From Yoonia sp. BS5-3 (GTDB lineage Bacteria; Pseudomonadota; Alphaproteobacteria; Rhodobacterales; Rhodobacteraceae), in the NCBI RefSeq assembly GCF_038069655.2, contig NZ_CP150951.2, positions 3,560,001 to 3,624,000 on the forward strand: 64,000 nucleotides of DNA. Reading direction: 5' to 3'. Both the position numbers and the translations under genes were made by a program. The notes under the pieces are model-generated. The model was not told the origin of the DNA and did no database searches. It was given only the letters and a program-made list of their open reading frames with translations. Position 1 is the stretch's first letter. Each line of letters begins with the position of its first letter. This document shows positions 1 through 8,354 of this stretch, in pieces.

Positions 1-861
1 TGCGGTAATCAGCAAAACACTTAAGATGATCAGATTGAAAAAACTGCGGGCCTGGGCGTCCTTCCATAGCGGTTTGACGGCCCCGGCAATCAATTGGACA
101 TAACGAACAAACGGGAGAGCGGCCATGAACATAAAAAAGACAGCCACATAGTGGATCGGGCCACTATATTGGCTGAAAGACGCATCAGAATTGGCCATAC
201 CGCCAGTTGAAACCGTCGTCATAGCATGCACAAACGCATCAAAAGCAGGCATGCCCAGGGCGGCATAGATCATGCCGCAACAGACCGTCAGAACCAGATA
301 AACCTGCGATATGCGGCTTGCGATCGTGCCGGCCCGGGGCAAAATCTTGCCCATTGTGTCAAAGGCCTCAGAGCGAAACATCTGCATACCACCAACTCGC
401 AACTCGGGCAGGAACACCATCGCGACAACAATAATCCCAATGCCGCCAAGCCATTGCAAAATGCCGCGCCAAAGTTTGATCCCGTCAGGAAGCATTTCGA
501 TCCCTGTAAATACCGTGGCGCCGGTGGTGGTTAGGCCTGACATCGCCTCGAAAAACGCATCGGTAAAGCTGGCTTGCGGCGCGCCGAAAATAAAGGGCAG
601 CGCACCAAAAATAGGCAGTGTCAGCCACACCAGTGAGGTCAGCAAAAAGGTCTGGCGCAATGTCAGCCCAGCGGTCACACCATTTGCGCAGGCAAGCGCC
701 GTCAGACCGCCGATCAACACCGTAATAACCGCGCTTTCAAAGAACACAGGCCAATGCCCATTGCCCGCCAGAACATCCGCGACAAGCGGGCCCAACATCG
801 TCAACCCGAGCGCGGCGACAAGCAGACCAATCACATATCCAACGGGGCGCAAATCAAGCAT
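1..861 (-). CDS. trkH: TrkH-type potassium uptake protein, partial (C-terminus beyond window)
   Basis: Integral-membrane subunit of a Trk/Ktr-type potassium uptake system. Read on the minus strand from the ATG at 861, the frame stays open for 287 codons to the window edge, so only the N-terminal half or so is present. The translation is strongly hydrophobic. It shows the repeated P-loop filter segments of the TrkH/TrkG/KtrB family: SGLTTTGATVFTG at residues 108-120 and TTVSTGGMA at 215-223, followed by further membrane segments. Family knowledge: the channel works with a cytoplasmic TrkA-type NAD-binding regulator, which is not in this window. The identification is firm at family level; TrkH versus TrkG/KtrB is not separable here. 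Confidence 0.93.
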   Translation of the reverse strand, partial: MLDLRPVGYVIGLLVAALGLTMLGPLVADVLAGNGHWPVFFESAVITVLIGGLTALACANGVTAGLTLRQTFLLTSLVWLTLPIFGALPFIFGAPQASFTDAFFEAMSGLTTTGATVFTGIEMLPDGIKLWRGILQWLGGIGIIVVAMVFLPELRVGGMQMFRSEAFDTMGKILPRAGTIASRISQVYLVLTVCCGMIYAALGMPAFDAFVHAMTTVSTGGMANSDASFSQYSGPIHYVAVFFMFMAALPFVRYVQLIAGAVKPLWKDAQARSFFNLIILSVLLITA

Positions 862-958
862 GGTGCAGCGTTGGCCTCTGGGATGCTAAGTGTCAAGAAC
901 AGGCGACGGAATTCGCGCGTAGATGCGTATAAGCGTTGCAACACCGCAGGAGGCATCC

Positions 959-1774
959 ATGTTAAAGCGTATCTTTTTTCTACCCTTGATCCTCGCACTT
1001 ATCGGGGCAGCTGCTGGCGCGCAAGAACGTCAGGAATTCGCCTACGGGGGCGATCCTTTGCAACGCCTTGACCTTTACCGCGCAGCCCAGAGCACCAACG
1101 CCCCGATCATCGTGATGCTGCATGGGGGCGCTTGGCGCGACGGTGACAAACGCGCGCGCGGCGTCTGGCAGAACAAGGCGGCATATTGGACTGCGCGCGG
1201 CTATTTGTTTGTGTCCGTGAATACCCGGCTGCTGCCAGATGCACATCCCACCCAGCAGGCCCAGGATTTGGCAGCAGCCATGGCCTTTATCCAGCAAAAT
1301 GCAGCACGTGTTGGCGGGAACCCCGATCAGATCATCTTGATGGGCCATTCGGCCGGGGCGCATGTTGCCGCGCTTTTGGCGACGCGCAATGACCTGCGCC
1401 GGGCTGCGGGGGTGCAGCCCTGGGCCGGGACGATTGTTTTGGATACAGCCGCACTTGATCTTGAGACCGTGATGAACGACGACCCGGCCCGGCTTTACCT
1501 GCAAGCCTTTGGGCGCGGGGCCGACTACTGGCGTGCGGCCTCTCCCTTGCGTCACATCAGCCGACAGGAAGGCCCCTTTTTGGTCGTTTGTTCGGCGCTG
1601 CGGGACGACGCGTGCCCGGCCGCTGAAAGCTTTGCACAGGCGGCCGCAGCCCAAAGGGTGGATGTGACCATCGCGCCGCAACCCCTGTCACATGCGCAAA
1701 TTAACCGCAGGCTAGGTCAATCCAGCAGCTACACCGCAACGGTGGACAATTGGATCACATCCGCGCTGCAATAG
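959..1774 (+). CDS. Secreted alpha/beta hydrolase (BD-FAE/esterase-lipase type)
   Basis: Predicted esterase of the alpha/beta-hydrolase fold, 271 residues. I start it at ATG 959 rather than further upstream, because AGGAGG at 948-953 is a strong ribosome-binding site and this start gives a clean signal peptide (residues 1-21, MLKRIFFLPLILALIGAAAG). HGGAW at 55-59 supplies the oxyanion hole. The nucleophile is S131 in GHSAGAH, and H245 near the C-terminus is the likely catalytic histidine. The pattern resembles kynurenine-formamidase-like and feruloyl-esterase-like hydrolases, but the substrate is unknown. The next gene starts 36 bases downstream on the same strand, so co-transcription is possible. 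Confidence 0.88.
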   Translation: MLKRIFFLPLILALIGAAAGAQERQEFAYGGDPLQRLDLYRAAQSTNAPIIVMLHGGAWRDGDKRARGVWQNKAAYWTARGYLFVSVNTRLLPDAHPTQQAQDLAAAMAFIQQNAARVGGNPDQIILMGHSAGAHVAALLATRNDLRRAAGVQPWAGTIVLDTAALDLETVMNDDPARLYLQAFGRGADYWRAASPLRHISRQEGPFLVVCSALRDDACPAAESFAQAAAAQRVDVTIAPQPLSHAQINRRLGQSSSYTATVDNWITSALQ

Positions 1775-1810
1775 CTTGAAACTGGACCGAGGCGGGATAA
1801 CTGGCCTCTC

Positions 1811-2974
1811 ATGTTTGAACCAAGTTACACCGCCGCCCTGCAACGACTGCAAAATTTCCTGCCCCACGCAGGACGTGATTATGCGGCAAGACGCAATTAT
1901 GATGACATCCGCGGGGTGTCGGGCCTGTCACCCTATCTGCGGCACCGGATCATCACAGAGGCTGATGTGCTCAAGGCCGTTTTAGGGCGTCATTCACCGC
2001 ATGCGGCAGAAAAGTTCATTCAAGAGGTCTATTGGCGGACCTATTGGAAGGGCTGGCTGGAAATGCGTCCTGGCATTTGGACAGCCTACAAGACCGAACG
2101 CGACGCCGCCCTAAACCGGATCCAAACCGAAGCCGGGCTGCGCCAACAATGGGAGGCCGCCTGCACCGGCACCACCGGGATCGCCTGTTTTGATCATTGG
2201 GCGCAAGAGCTGGCGGCGACAGGCTATCTGCATAATCACGCGCGGATGTGGTTCGCCTCGATCTGGATATTTACACTGCGACTGCCCTGGACGCTGGGGG
2301 CCGATTTCTTTCTGCGGCACCTTTTGGATGGGGATGCGGCCAGCAATACGCTTTCTTGGCGCTGGGTTGGCGGGCTACAGACCGTCGGCAAAACCTATCT
2401 CGCGCGCCCGGACAATATCGCGAAATACACCAATGGGCGGTTTCAACCGACAGGGCTGGCCAGTTTTGCCGCCCCGCTCGCTGGTATGCCCCATCCCAAA
2501 AAGGGCCCCCTGCCCGTCAGCGACGCGATTGACCCACGTGAACGCATCGGACTTTTGATAACCGAGGACGATCTGAGCCCAGGCTGGCTGCTTGATCAGT
2601 TCACGCCTGTTACAACCGCCTTTGTCCAAACCACGGATCGACGTAGCCCATTGCAGGTCGCACCGCAGGTCACCGATTTCGTGGCAAACGCCATGAAAAA
2701 CACCGGGCGACGCTATGCCAGCAGACTGGGACCAGTCAGCTATATCGCCGCCAATGGCATCGACCAATGGGTGGCCGAAAATGAGATAACGCAGATCGTC
2801 TCTGCTTATAGTCCGGTTGGTCCGACCCAAGACGCGCTAGAAAACATCTCGCAAAAACAGCTGATCCGCCCCTATGACAGCCAGGCATGGCCCTATGCAA
2901 CGCACGGATTTTTCAAGTTCAGAGAACGTATTCCAAAGCTGATCAGCCCGTTTGCCCCCCAAACGACCGCTTGA
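1811..2974 (+). CDS. Photolyase/cryptochrome FAD-binding-domain protein, apparently permuted
   Basis: 387 residues. Residues 5-225 match the all-helical FAD-binding half of photolyases and cryptochromes: SGLSPYLRHR, EVYWRTYW, GYLHNHARMWFAS, and LLDGDAASNTLSWRWVGG, which carries the conserved N-D/N-W flavin and nucleotide contacts. The usual N-terminal alpha/beta domain is missing. Instead, residues 240-380 follow the FAD domain and look alpha/beta: RIGLLITEDDL, then a helix, and WVAENEITQIVSAYSPVGP ending in GFFKFRERIP. That order resembles the photolyase N-terminal domain moved to the C-terminus. The shadow of a Shine-Dalgarno site is weak, so coupling to the upstream hydrolase is possible. 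Function (DNA repair or light sensing) is inferred only from the family. Confidence 0.82.
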   Translation: MFEPSYTAALQRLQNFLPHAGRDYAARRNYDDIRGVSGLSPYLRHRIITEADVLKAVLGRHSPHAAEKFIQEVYWRTYWKGWLEMRPGIWTAYKTERDAALNRIQTEAGLRQQWEAACTGTTGIACFDHWAQELAATGYLHNHARMWFASIWIFTLRLPWTLGADFFLRHLLDGDAASNTLSWRWVGGLQTVGKTYLARPDNIAKYTNGRFQPTGLASFAAPLAGMPHPKKGPLPVSDAIDPRERIGLLITEDDLSPGWLLDQFTPVTTAFVQTTDRRSPLQVAPQVTDFVANAMKNTGRRYASRLGPVSYIAANGIDQWVAENEITQIVSAYSPVGPTQDALENISQKQLIRPYDSQAWPYATHGFFKFRERIPKLISPFAPQTTA

Positions 2975-3045
2975 TGCAGATTGCAAAACAGCTGATGACA
3001 GCTTAATCTAAACCAATCAGTTCACCTGAACCGGAGAGGTCCGAT

Positions 3046-3510
3046 ATGCCCACAACACTCACCATCAACGGCACCGCCCAAACCGTCGATCTGCCCGATG
3101 ACGTACCCCTGCTTTGGGTTCTACGGGACGCGGTCGGGCTGACAGGCACCAAATTCGGTTGCGGCGTCGCCGCATGTGGGGCCTGCACCGTACATATTGA
3201 TGGCGAAGCGGTGCGGTCGTGCCAAGTCGCTTTGGCCGATGTCTGGGGCGAGGTGACAACAATTGAAGGCCTCGGTACACCCGACAACATGGCCACGATC
3301 CAACAGGCATGGGTGGATCATCAGGTCGCGCAATGCGGCTATTGCCAATCCGGTCAGATCATGAATGCGGCGGCCTTGCTGGCGCAAACGCCGCAGCCCA
3401 CGGATCAAGACATCGATGACGCGATGCAGGGGAACCTGTGCCGCTGTGGGACTTATCCGCGTATCCGGGCCGCGATCAAAGACGCCGCCCAACGCATTCA
3501 GGAGGCGTGA
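3046..3510 (+). CDS. [2Fe-2S] subunit of a xanthine-dehydrogenase-family molybdenum hydroxylase
   Basis: Small iron-sulfur subunit, 154 residues, that carries electrons from the molybdenum subunit encoded next. The N-terminal ferredoxin domain has C39, C44, C47 and C59 ([12 protein letters not shown]), and the C-terminal helical domain has C97, C100, C132 and C134 (CGYCQSGQ and CRCGTY), giving the expected two clusters. The size and the pairing with a two-domain large subunit that lacks a separate FAD subunit match the isoquinoline 1-oxidoreductase (IorA) type. GGAGAGG at 3032-3038 lies seven bases before the start. The stop is three bases before the next gene. Confidence 0.93.
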
Positions 3511-3513
3511 TCA

Positions 3514-5748
3514 ATGGCCAGCATCGGTAAAATCGCCCGCCGCACCTTCCTGATCGGGACCGCCGCCATCGCGGGCGGGGTCGCCTTTGGGGTCTATCAA
3601 GTGCGCAAAGACCCGCCCAACCCGCTGGTGGCGGGCGACGGCGAGGCGACTTTGAACCCCTATATCCTGGTCAACGCTGATGGGATCACGATCATCGCAC
3701 CGCGGGCCGAAATGGGCCAAGGGGTGCATACGACACTCGCCGCGCTAGCGGCCGAAGAAATGGATGTAGCCTGGGATGACATCACCGTCCTGCACGGCCC
3801 CCCGGCGCAAGCCTACTACAACCAAGCGCTCTTGGGCCTCGCCCTGCCTTTCCACCACTACGCCGACAGCGATTTCCAGCATAACCTGCGCAAAAACGTA
3901 GGGATGGTCGGCAAACTTCTGAACCTGCAAGTGACCGGCGGATCCACCTCCACCAAAGACGCATACGATCGAATGCGGCACGCCGGGGCCTCCGCCCGCG
4001 AGGCGCTGAAACTGGCCGCCGCCGACCAGCTTGGGCTCGATGCCAGCACGCTGACGACCGCAGATAGCAAAGTCATCGCCCCAGACGGCACCGAAATCGC
4101 CTACACGGCGCTGGCAGAGGCCGTCCGCGACATCAGCCCGCCCGATGTGGCACTACGCGCCAAATCCGAATGGAAATACCTCGGTAAATCCATGCCGCGC
4201 ACCGATATGGTTGGCAAATCCACAGGCACCGCCACCTACGCCACCGACACAAAACTGGACGGCATGAAATTCGCCACCGTGCGGATGAACCCACGGCGCA
4301 GCGGGATGGTGTCCTATGACGACAGCACCGCCAAAACCATGGCCGGGGTTGAGGCCATCATCGATCTGGGCGACGGGATTGGGGTCGTGGCCAGCAACAC
4401 ATGGCTCGCGATCCAAGCGGCAAATGCAGTGGACATCGAATGGGAACAGGCAAGTTACCCCGCCGACACCGATGGTTTACTAGCAGCAACAAAAGCCGCT
4501 TTCGATCTGGACCCAAACTCCACCGCACGCGACGAAGGCGACGTGAACGACGCGGTCGAAGGTACTGAAGTCACAGCGGAATACGTGGTGCCTTACCTCG
4601 CGCACAGCACGATGGAGCCAATGACCGCCACCGCCATCTATCGCGGTGACAGCCTTGAGGTCTGGTCCGGCAACCAAGCCCCCGTCATCGTCCGCGAAAA
4701 ATGCGCCGAGGCCTGCGGGCTGGACCCCGAACAGGTCACCGTGCACACAACCCTCATGGGCGGCGGCTTCGGGCGACGCTCGGAATCCGATTTCTCTGTC
4801 CACGCCGCCAAAATCGCTGCGGCCATGCCAAACACGCCCATCCGCATGACGTGGAGCCGGGAAGAAGACATGCAGCACGACTTCTACCGCCCCGCAGCCA
4901 TCGGGCAGTTCCGGGGCGTTGTGGCCGACGGCAAAGCCGTGCTGCTTGACGGGAAGATCGCAGCACAGTCGGTCTCACATAGCGCCATGGCGCGCATGAC
5001 AGGACAAGTGCCCCCCGGCCCCGATCGGGGCCATGTGGAAGGGGCCGCCGACCAACCTTACGGCATCCCGAACTTCCGGATTAGCGGACATCTGGCAGAG
5101 CTGACCGTCCCGCTCGGCTTCTGGCGCTCGGTCGGGAATTCGCACAACGGGTTCTTCTTTGACACCTTCATCGATGAAATGGCCCATGCCGCAGGCGCAG
5201 ACCCGCTGCAATTCCGGCTGGATATGACCAAAGACGAACACGCGCCCTCTGCCGGGGTGATCGCGGCTGTTGGCGAGATGTCGAACTGGGGCAGTGACAA
5301 GCCCGCCAACATCGGACGCGGGATCGGGTTCACCTATTCCTTCGGCACACCTGTGGCCGAGGTTGTGGAAGTCGAAGACACCGGCAACGGGATCAAGATT
5401 AACAAATGCTGGATCGCCTGTGACATGGGGACGGCGCTGGACCCCAGCATCGTCGAGGCGCAGATGACATCGGGGGCGATCTACGGGTTCTCAGCGGCAA
5501 TGCAGGGCGAAATCACGTTCTATGACGGGGAAGCCGAACAATATAATTTCTATGATTACGACGCGATGCGGATGCATAACGTGCCGGCATTCGAGGTGCA
5601 GATCCTTGAGAACAATAATCACATGGGCGGTGCGGGCGAACCAGGCACACCGCCTTCGATGCCCGCGCTGGGGAATGCGCTGTTCGATCTGACGGGGGTC
5701 AGGGCGCGTGAACTGCCACTCATCAACACGTTTGATCTGATCCTTTAG
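3514..5748 (+). CDS. Molybdopterin-binding large subunit, isoquinoline 1-oxidoreductase (IorB)-like
   Basis: 744-residue catalytic subunit of a xanthine-dehydrogenase-family aldehyde/N-heterocycle hydroxylase. It starts with a twin-arginine signal (IARRTFLIG, arginines 9-10, then a hydrophobic stretch), so the holoenzyme is probably exported folded to the periplasm, with the small subunit carried along. Family motifs include the GGGFGRR segment near residue 412 and ATYATDTKLDGMKFA at the start of the binding domain. GAGEPGTPPSMPALGNAL near the C-terminus contains the active-site glutamate typical of the family. GGAGG at 3501-3505 precedes the start. No maturation factor (XdhC/CoxI) is adjacent in the window. 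The real substrate is unknown; it need not be isoquinoline. Confidence 0.9.
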   Translation: MASIGKIARRTFLIGTAAIAGGVAFGVYQVRKDPPNPLVAGDGEATLNPYILVNADGITIIAPRAEMGQGVHTTLAALAAEEMDVAWDDITVLHGPPAQAYYNQALLGLALPFHHYADSDFQHNLRKNVGMVGKLLNLQVTGGSTSTKDAYDRMRHAGASAREALKLAAADQLGLDASTLTTADSKVIAPDGTEIAYTALAEAVRDISPPDVALRAKSEWKYLGKSMPRTDMVGKSTGTATYATDTKLDGMKFATVRMNPRRSGMVSYDDSTAKTMAGVEAIIDLGDGIGVVASNTWLAIQAANAVDIEWEQASYPADTDGLLAATKAAFDLDPNSTARDEGDVNDAVEGTEVTAEYVVPYLAHSTMEPMTATAIYRGDSLEVWSGNQAPVIVREKCAEACGLDPEQVTVHTTLMGGGFGRRSESDFSVHAAKIAAAMPNTPIRMTWSREEDMQHDFYRPAAIGQFRGVVADGKAVLLDGKIAAQSVSHSAMARMTGQVPPGPDRGHVEGAADQPYGIPNFRISGHLAELTVPLGFWRSVGNSHNGFFFDTFIDEMAHAAGADPLQFRLDMTKDEHAPSAGVIAAVGEMSNWGSDKPANIGRGIGFTYSFGTPVAEVVEVEDTGNGIKINKCWIACDMGTALDPSIVEAQMTSGAIYGFSAAMQGEITFYDGEAEQYNFYDYDAMRMHNVPAFEVQILENNNHMGGAGEPGTPPSMPALGNALFDLTGVRARELPLINTFDLIL

Positions 5749-5803
5749 ACACGATAGGCGGGGCGCGCACCGGTTCGCCGGGCGCACCTCAAGCGGAGCC
5801 CCC

Positions 5804-6067
5804 ATGCCAAAGACCCCAAGCCCCTGTATCGATGTATGCAAGTTCAAACGCGAAGGGCATTGCATCGGCTGCTCGATGACAAAAACGCAGAAATCCTTGT
5901 TCAAAACACTGAAAAAAGACAGTCACCGGCAGGCTTTTGTGCAGATGCTGATCGCGCAGCAAGAAGTGATGGGGAAATACAAAGGCTGGCGGCTTGCCTA
6001 TAGTAAGAAATGCACAAAAAAAGGCGCCGAAGCGCCCTTTTCCTTACTCGATAAAACAAAACCTTAG
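5804..6067 (+). CDS. DUF1289 family small cysteine protein
   Basis: 87 residues with the DUF1289 signature SPCIDVCKFKREGHCIGC (C8, C12, C20, C23), a likely small metal or cluster site of unknown role. The family is usually about 60-70 residues. The last 15 or so residues here (after AYSKKC) are encoded by the intergenic hairpin described at 6014-6043, so the C-terminal tail is probably a by-product of reading through a terminator region. The stop codon overlaps the stop of dps on the other strand by three bases. It could be co-transcribed with the molybdenum hydroxylase genes, whose last stop is 55 bases upstream. Confidence 0.85.
   Translation: MPKTPSPCIDVCKFKREGHCIGCSMTKTQKSLFKTLKKDSHRQAFVQMLIAQQEVMGKYKGWRLAYSKKCTKKGAEAPFSLLDKTKP
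6014..6043. terminator. Bidirectional terminator inside the DUF1289 reading frame
   Basis: GGCGC (6023-6027), loop CGAA, GCGCC (6032-6036), flanked by A7 on the left and TTTT on the right, so each strand ends in a run of T after the stem. It lies between the convergent DUF1289 and dps genes. It sits within the last 18 codons of the former and about 20 bases beyond the stop of the latter. Confidence 0.75.
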
Positions 6068-7228: not shown

Positions 7229-8224
7229 CTAGGTAAGCGGCTCAAGCAAGCATTTACCGTTTTTCTTTATTCTATCTGCCAGTTTGCGAACCATTCTGCC
7301 CTGTTTCGGAATTGGGCGCGCCGGATTGGCAGCATATCGTTCCCGGCAAATCTCGGGGAAGAGGCGTTGGATTTCTCTTCGCGCAGACGCGCTAACCGAC
7401 TTGAGCGCTTCCGGCCCCGTAAACAGGCTTTCGGTCGGAGCCCCATTTGAAAATACGATTTGATGATTTTCGAAAAGGAAATGCGTGTAGATGACAGCGC
7501 TGACATGACGCTCAACCCCGATACCATCGAGATCGAGCAATTTTTTCGCAGGCACCAATATCTCGGCTGTTCCAAACATCCTTTCGGCCACAATCGAACG
7601 AAGCAACATGCGATGTTGTGGAGAAACCCGCAGGTCACTTTCTGCTAGCCCCGGCCCCAACGCACCTGCCCTAATCCTGATTGGGCGTAACTGGGGATGG
7701 TTTGCGAGGTCTGCACCCCCCAAAATGCGTGACCCAATCCACCTGATAGGTTGAAAACCATGGTCCATCGTACGGACCAAATCACCCACGCGAAGTTCTT
7801 GAACCGCGACAGCCCTGCCATCCGTCAGAATGAGTGTGTCTTCGGCAAAGCAAACAAAGCTGGGAAGTTCATCATAATCACTTGGCGCAGCTGTAAACGA
7901 ACCAAGCGTTGGTCCAACAATAGTATCACCAGCAACAACAGTTCCAGACGTCACGAACATGTATTGTGTTCCTGAAAATTGGATCAGCGTAAATGTGACG
8001 CTGCTGCCGTTGACGGTTCCGTCATATGTTTCAAACACTTGGAAATTGTCTGAGTTCGCAAGCCCTGGAACACCGCTCACATCAAATTGCGACGTTCCAT
8101 TGCCATCGGGGTCCTCAAGTAATCCATCATCATCGGTGATCTCAACCGTAAAGCCAGCAACAACGCCGATGTCATTGCCGTTCAGAGGATCGTTATCCAA
8201 TTCAAAGATGACGATGGTAGCCAT
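7229..8224 (-). CDS. Hint-domain (Hedgehog/intein-like) protein
   Basis: 331 residues from the ATG at 8224, chosen because GGAGGTG precedes it and an upstream in-frame start adds an unlikely sequence. Residues 1-115 form an Asp/Gly-rich, beta-strand-type segment with no cysteine and no classical signal peptide. The Hint domain starts at C125 (CFAEDTLI, then VAVQELRVGDLVRTMDHG and PIRWIGSR) and ends near the C-terminus. Proteins of this layout are common and often multi-copy in Rhodobacteraceae, and are thought to be surface or secreted proteins, perhaps exported by type I secretion. Whether this one cleaves itself cannot be told; the canonical intein C-terminal His-Asn is not evident. The gene stands alone. 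Confidence 0.85.
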   Translation of the reverse strand: MATIVIFELDNDPLNGNDIGVVAGFTVEITDDDGLLEDPDGNGTSQFDVSGVPGLANSDNFQVFETYDGTVNGSSVTFTLIQFSGTQYMFVTSGTVVAGDTIVGPTLGSFTAAPSDYDELPSFVCFAEDTLILTDGRAVAVQELRVGDLVRTMDHGFQPIRWIGSRILGGADLANHPQLRPIRIRAGALGPGLAESDLRVSPQHRMLLRSIVAERMFGTAEILVPAKKLLDLDGIGVERHVSAVIYTHFLFENHQIVFSNGAPTESLFTGPEALKSVSASARREIQRLFPEICRERYAANPARPIPKQGRMVRKLADRIKKNGKCLLEPLT

Positions 8225-8354
8225 GATACGCGCCCACCTCCAATGCGATGCACAAAAGCATCGCAACACAGATGGACCTCTCCCAACATTTACGTGTGGA
8301 AAAGTATCGCATAGCAATTATAGATTGTAACCATGTCCCAATTAAGGTGATGGT

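Follow-up and report, generated by a model that had tools for sequence, protein, structure and literature searches.

A probable NewPHL-class photolyase with inverted domain order in Yoonia sp. BS5-3

The gene at positions 1811–2974 (+ strand) of a 64,000-nucleotide stretch of Yoonia sp. BS5-3 DNA (contig NZ_CP150951.2; the whole stretch is hereafter called the window) encodes a protein of 387 residues in which the flavin adenine dinucleotide (FAD)-binding domain of photolyases precedes an alpha/beta domain. We conclude, with a probability of about 0.93, that the protein is a NewPHL-class photolyase, most likely an FADH(-)-dependent cyclobutane pyrimidine dimer (CPD) photolyase acting on single-stranded DNA. 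Membership of the class is supported by orthology to a protein of Dinoroseobacter shibae, by the catalytic residues, by the clade in which the protein falls, and by a confident model in which both halves are photolyase-like. The class itself is not new: it has been known since 2020, and the Yoonia protein is a further member of it. PMC13274461, citing Emmerich et al. (2020, NAR 48:12845-12857), attributes CPD repair in single-stranded DNA and an inverted domain topology to NewPHL and the short photolyase-like proteins (SPL), and names D. shibae A8LJA9 and a Methylobacterium mesophilicum protein as NewPHL members.

Domain order, orthology, and catalytic residues

The open reading frame is intact and starts with ATG. 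A Pfam scan of the protein gave PF03441 (FAD_binding_7; residues 69–196, E 3.1e-20) as the sole match, and PF00875 was absent. The closest sequence match in the PDB was the FAD half of the Anacystis nidulans photolyase (residues 206–393), and no full-length homolog of the inverted enzyme was found there. VIA-align aligned residues 1 to approximately 222 of the AlphaFold2 model with residues ~174–460 of solved photolyases, the highest score in the comparison of the whole model being that of the FAD half with the Thermus thermophilus photolyase (Z 16.5). On the basis of PF03441 and this structural alignment, residues 1–222 (positions 1811–2476, + strand) were assigned to the FAD-binding catalytic domain. 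Residues 223–245 (2477–2545, +), which have no secondary structure in the model, were assigned to a linker, and residues 246–382 (2546–2956, +) to a C-terminal, Rossmann-like alpha/beta domain (HUP-type, 'Z') on the basis of the models and their PDB matches.

A sequence-only reading of this DNA had placed the FAD domain first and described the N-terminal photolyase domain as missing. The motifs it quoted are all present in the translation, the FAD domain does come first, and profile searches of the six-frame translations, in agreement with Pfam, found no N-terminal domain upstream in any frame; the class I layout, in which PF00875 lies N-terminal to PF03441, is not that of this protein. The reversed domain order is thus confirmed. 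The same reading called the layout unusual, which it is, but the inverted order is already a published hallmark of NewPHL.

The protein is 59% identical (query residues 2–379) to a single inverted photolyase, L024, which is the only full-length match in its genome (G035; L and G numbers denote loci and genomes of our set). This genome is that of D. shibae DFL 12, as its 190,506-bp contig shares a stretch of 4,001 bases with plasmid NC_009955.1, letter for letter and at matching coordinates. In a tree of FAD domains, the inverted proteins formed one clade (99/97) with the class I photolyases apart, and the Yoonia and D. shibae proteins both fell within it; together with their sequence identity, this identifies them as orthologs.

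Residues were mapped through a phmmer alignment to the A. nidulans photolyase (1tez), and their conservation was counted in 107 homolog rows. Invariant in all rows were E72 (2024–2026, +), corresponding to E283 of the CPD pocket; the further pocket positions W75 (W286), M146 (M353), and W185 (W392); N179 (2345–2347, +), corresponding to N386, the asparagine located at N5 of the flavin; and W160 and W183 (W367 and W390; 2288–2359, +), the electron-transfer tryptophans. The CPD-pocket and electron-transfer roles are those that we take the aligned residues to have in the A. nidulans enzyme. The distal tryptophan, W114 (W314), was variable (W in 71 of the 107 rows, Y in 16, and F in 5), and is kept as tryptophan in both the Yoonia protein and its D. 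shibae homolog. The FAD-contact positions, taken from the list in PMC9426592, showed little or no variation, apart from V36, which stands in place of T240.

Fold and origin of the C-terminal domain

AlphaFold2 modeled the whole protein from 29 sequences with a mean predicted local distance difference test score (pLDDT) of 94.8 and a predicted template modeling score of 0.92, and the C-terminal domain alone from 57 sequences with a pLDDT of 94.4. The predicted C-terminal domain runs beta (246–251), short alpha (258–261), beta (268–272), alpha (285–301), beta (309–312), alpha (314–323), beta (328–332), alpha (338–343), and beta (349–351), followed by terminal helices. In a Foldseek search with this domain, the top 14 matches were photolyases or cryptochromes, and most of the top 30 were photolyase N-terminal domains. 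The six best VIA-align matches were likewise photolyase or cryptochrome N-terminal domains, led by 8ijy (Z 9.0, 107 residues aligned, 2.7 Å) and including Rhodobacter sphaeroides CryB (3zxs; Z 8.8, 108 aligned, 2.5 Å), with PhrB and Caulobacter structures at Z 8.0–8.6. Universal stress proteins came next, 3olq at Z 7.9 and another UspA structure at 7.7. As modeled, residues 246–382 have the fold and strand order of the PF00875-superfamily photolyase N-terminal domain; the domain is of the HUP alpha/beta type, and its nearest solved structures are photolyase N-terminal domains by about 1 Z unit. The likeness to the photolyase alpha/beta domain that had been read from the sequence for residues ~240–380 is therefore upheld for residues ~246–382, and the structure comparison proposed along with it gave the superposition that had been anticipated, with UspA structures just below.

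We put the chance at about even that this domain is the photolyase antenna domain shifted from the front of the protein to the back, i.e., a domain permutation. A less probable but possible origin is the fusion of the FAD domain to an unrelated HUP-type (UspA-like) nucleotide-binding domain, which would make the protein a separate two-domain invention. This alternative concerns only where the C-terminal domain came from and does not conflict with membership of NewPHL. The UspA scores, which lie near those of the photolyase N-terminal domains, speak for fusion, and so does the sequence comparison, where the match to PF00875 was limited to a single weak one (E 0.11; 1 of 57). When the profile of the C-terminal domain was compared with those of class I (A5) and DPRP-type (A4) photolyase N-terminal domains, nothing significant emerged (hhalign probability 1.5–5.7%), and a search of PDB sequences with the domain profile gave nothing below E 0.13. 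The missing sequence signal is uninformative, because A4 and A5, both accepted photolyase N-terminal domains, barely recognize each other by sequence, their control comparison being likewise insignificant. Under low-stringency hhalign settings, the class I comparison exceeded 397 of 400 column shuffles and the Usp comparison, made with a profile of two sequences only, exceeded 200 of 200; the class I result is not specific, since the Usp profile also exceeds all of its shuffles. Sequence profiles do not discriminate between descent from the photolyase N-terminal domain and from another HUP domain. Evidence against fusion is that photolyase N-terminal domains account for the six top Z-scores and for the majority of the Foldseek top 30, and that the weak class I profile alignment is collinear across the domain (residues 14–159 to 2–163) and sets THGFFKF opposite TGGFYKV.

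The question of permutation bears on how short photolyases are understood. According to PMC9649867, Xu et al. (2021) regarded short photolyases as ancestors without the photolyase N-terminal domain. If a photolyase domain was displaced to become the C-terminal domain, short photolyases would be derived and not primitive, and the view of an ancestor without the domain would need revision. The Yoonia gene adds one member to the class and offers a confident model of a whole inverted enzyme; in this model, the part that has been called missing or sealing is predicted to have the photolyase N-terminal fold, a point that matters for deciding if short photolyases represent an ancestral or a rearranged form.

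Putative repair function and alternative readings

By analogy with the published class, the enzyme would be specific for CPD and prefer single-stranded DNA, and its C-terminal domain would have a sealing role. It would be a flavoenzyme powered by blue light. Most likely, a CPD in single-stranded or unpaired DNA would be flipped into the FAD pocket, where photo-excited FADH(-) would give an electron to the cyclobutane dimer, the dimer would split, and the electron would return. The pair W183–W160 is expected to photoreduce FAD. In PMC8948257, the D. shibae enzyme (DsNewPHL) is described as using only a tryptophan dyad for FAD photoreduction; such a dyad could not be derived from sequence alone, because the Yoonia protein and its D. 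shibae counterpart both have W114. The role of the C-terminal domain is probably to close off the FAD pocket, and by origin it may be a displaced photolyase antenna domain.

A cryptochrome-like photoreceptor or regulator in place of a repair enzyme appears very improbable. Some photolyase-family proteins of Rhodobacterales do regulate genes, CryB of R. sphaeroides being an example, and no repair operon surrounds the inverted gene in the window, where the neighbors are not repair genes. Against this stand the invariant CPD-pocket residues E72, W75, M146, and W185, and the citation of the D. shibae and Methylobacterium NewPHL proteins as CPD photolyases in PMC9426592. The sequence-only reading had spoken of a permuted cryptochrome-family protein or a fusion; the inverted order and the photolyase-like fold agree with it, but "photolyase" is the apter word because the CPD-repair residues are invariant.

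Several points weigh against the NewPHL repair assignment. Besides the lack of a repair operon in the window, the identity of L024 with the assayed A8LJA9 is presumed from its being the sole full-length match in the genome and not from an accession. A third point concerns DASH enzymes, for which NewPHL can reportedly substitute; the C-terminal domain of NewPHL is also said to seal the FAD site. None of the 149 family genomes had a DASH protein above the cut-off, which fits a role in single-strand repair, as that role would otherwise be that of DASH. The argument is weak, since DASH above the cut-off is equally missing from the family genomes that do not have the inverted gene.

The NewPHL proteins of D. 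shibae and M. mesophilicum have the FAD domain first and a short alpha/beta 'Z' domain last, with the same catalytic residues as the Yoonia protein; the only differences found were ordinary sequence divergence and other genomic neighbors. SPL (Xu et al., 2021) are placed in one group with NewPHL in PMC13274461; the description of SPL by absence leaves out the C-terminal alpha/beta domain seen in our model. The FAD domain also precedes the photolyase domain in Phr4/Phr5 and Phr6 of marine Synechococcus/Cyanobium, but, unlike the Yoonia protein, these have cysteines for an Fe-S cluster and are predicted to be (6-4) photolyases (PMC9426592). Phr7 of Prochlorococcus, which has the same architecture without the Fe-S cysteines, is a nearer analog (PMC9426592). 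The class I CPD photolyases (Escherichia coli PhrB and those of A. nidulans and T. thermophilus) share the FAD-domain fold and the CPD-pocket residues but differ in their normal order, with PF00875 first, and in a longer FAD domain. Two further classes were rejected: cryptochrome-DASH, as the protein scored 57.6 bits with TIGR02765 against a cut-off of 317.05, and the iron-sulfur (6-4) photolyases (FeS-BCP), as PF04244 was unmatched in the Pfam scan.

There is next to no chance that the gene is a broken or split normal photolyase with its N-terminal domain encoded elsewhere nearby: other photolyase genes do adjoin it in some genomes, but the inverted frame is full length and kept across genera, no lone N-terminal domain was found in window positions 1–6000 with N-domain profiles against six-frame translations, the strong matches of the same profiles in 80 homologous loci were separate photolyase genes that have an FAD domain of their own, DPRP-type proteins, or genes truncated where the locus ends, and the in-frame sequence upstream of homologs was non-conserved. 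The split or frameshifted upstream gene in homologs that the sequence-only reading named as decisive against itself was looked for and not found. As the C-terminal half is conserved with the FAD half as one protein, the layout is neither chance nor a frameshift, and conservation of the inverted frame refutes a split photolyase.

Distribution and neighboring genes

Matches covering nearly the full query were found at 50 places in 49 of the 149 family genomes, the Yoonia genome (100%) included; outside it, identities were 44–63%. Of 121 genomes of the order searched with the C-terminal-domain profile, 57 had a match, every time in an open frame of at least 387 codons, as expected if the domain is always fused; of 299 genomes drawn from across the phylum, 12 had one. 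Relatives are present in Roseobacteraceae, Sphingomonadaceae, Caulobacteraceae, Stappiaceae, Acidocellaceae, and Ectothiorhodospiraceae, and also in Actinomycetota, e.g., Curtobacterium, Frigoribacterium, and Cryobacterium. The viral contigs searched contained no relative, and phage records gave FAD-domain matches only, none of which extended over more than 64% of the query.

Some copies were exceptional. One genome (G006) carries two full-length inverted photolyases (C38 and C42; 57% and 48% identical to the Yoonia protein), and those in G011, G086, and G135 have one internal stop each. At G126:C59:35907-36447 (L185), two separate pieces match query residues 2–62 and 271–381, which suggests a decayed copy of the inverted gene. 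A Persicobacter (Bacteroidota) plasmid (L174:2486-5051) encodes a distant inverted-type protein in a frame overlapping a complete photolyase directly downstream.

Another photolyase lies within ~3 kb of the inverted gene in 7 of the 80 loci, which were taken with flanks of up to 3 kb (L070, L074, L083, L085, L091, L104, and L105), and one also adjoins it in the family genomes G045 and G007. This fits a repair role; as separate photolyases, these genes supply no missing N-terminal domain. At L074, one photolyase with PF00875+PF03441 and another of DPRP type both lie within 3 kb. In addition, the Yoonia genome itself has genes for a class I-type photolyase (L002; PF00875 and PF03441) and for a separate protein (L172) with PF04244, the DPRP domain found in (6-4) photolyases.

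In the window, the inverted gene lies between an alpha/beta hydrolase gene and an oxidoreductase pair at 3046–5748, in which a 2Fe-2S protein precedes the large subunit of a molybdopterin oxidoreductase, resembling aldehyde or isoquinoline oxidoreductases. Such a pair also adjoins the two closest homologs (L032 and L033). Near many Rhodobacteraceae homologs there is a gene pair that, by reading, appears ClpP/ClpX-like. Farther along the window, an open reading frame at 7229–8317 (− strand) resembles a Hint-type domain by reading (CFAEDTLILTDGRAVAVQELRVGD).
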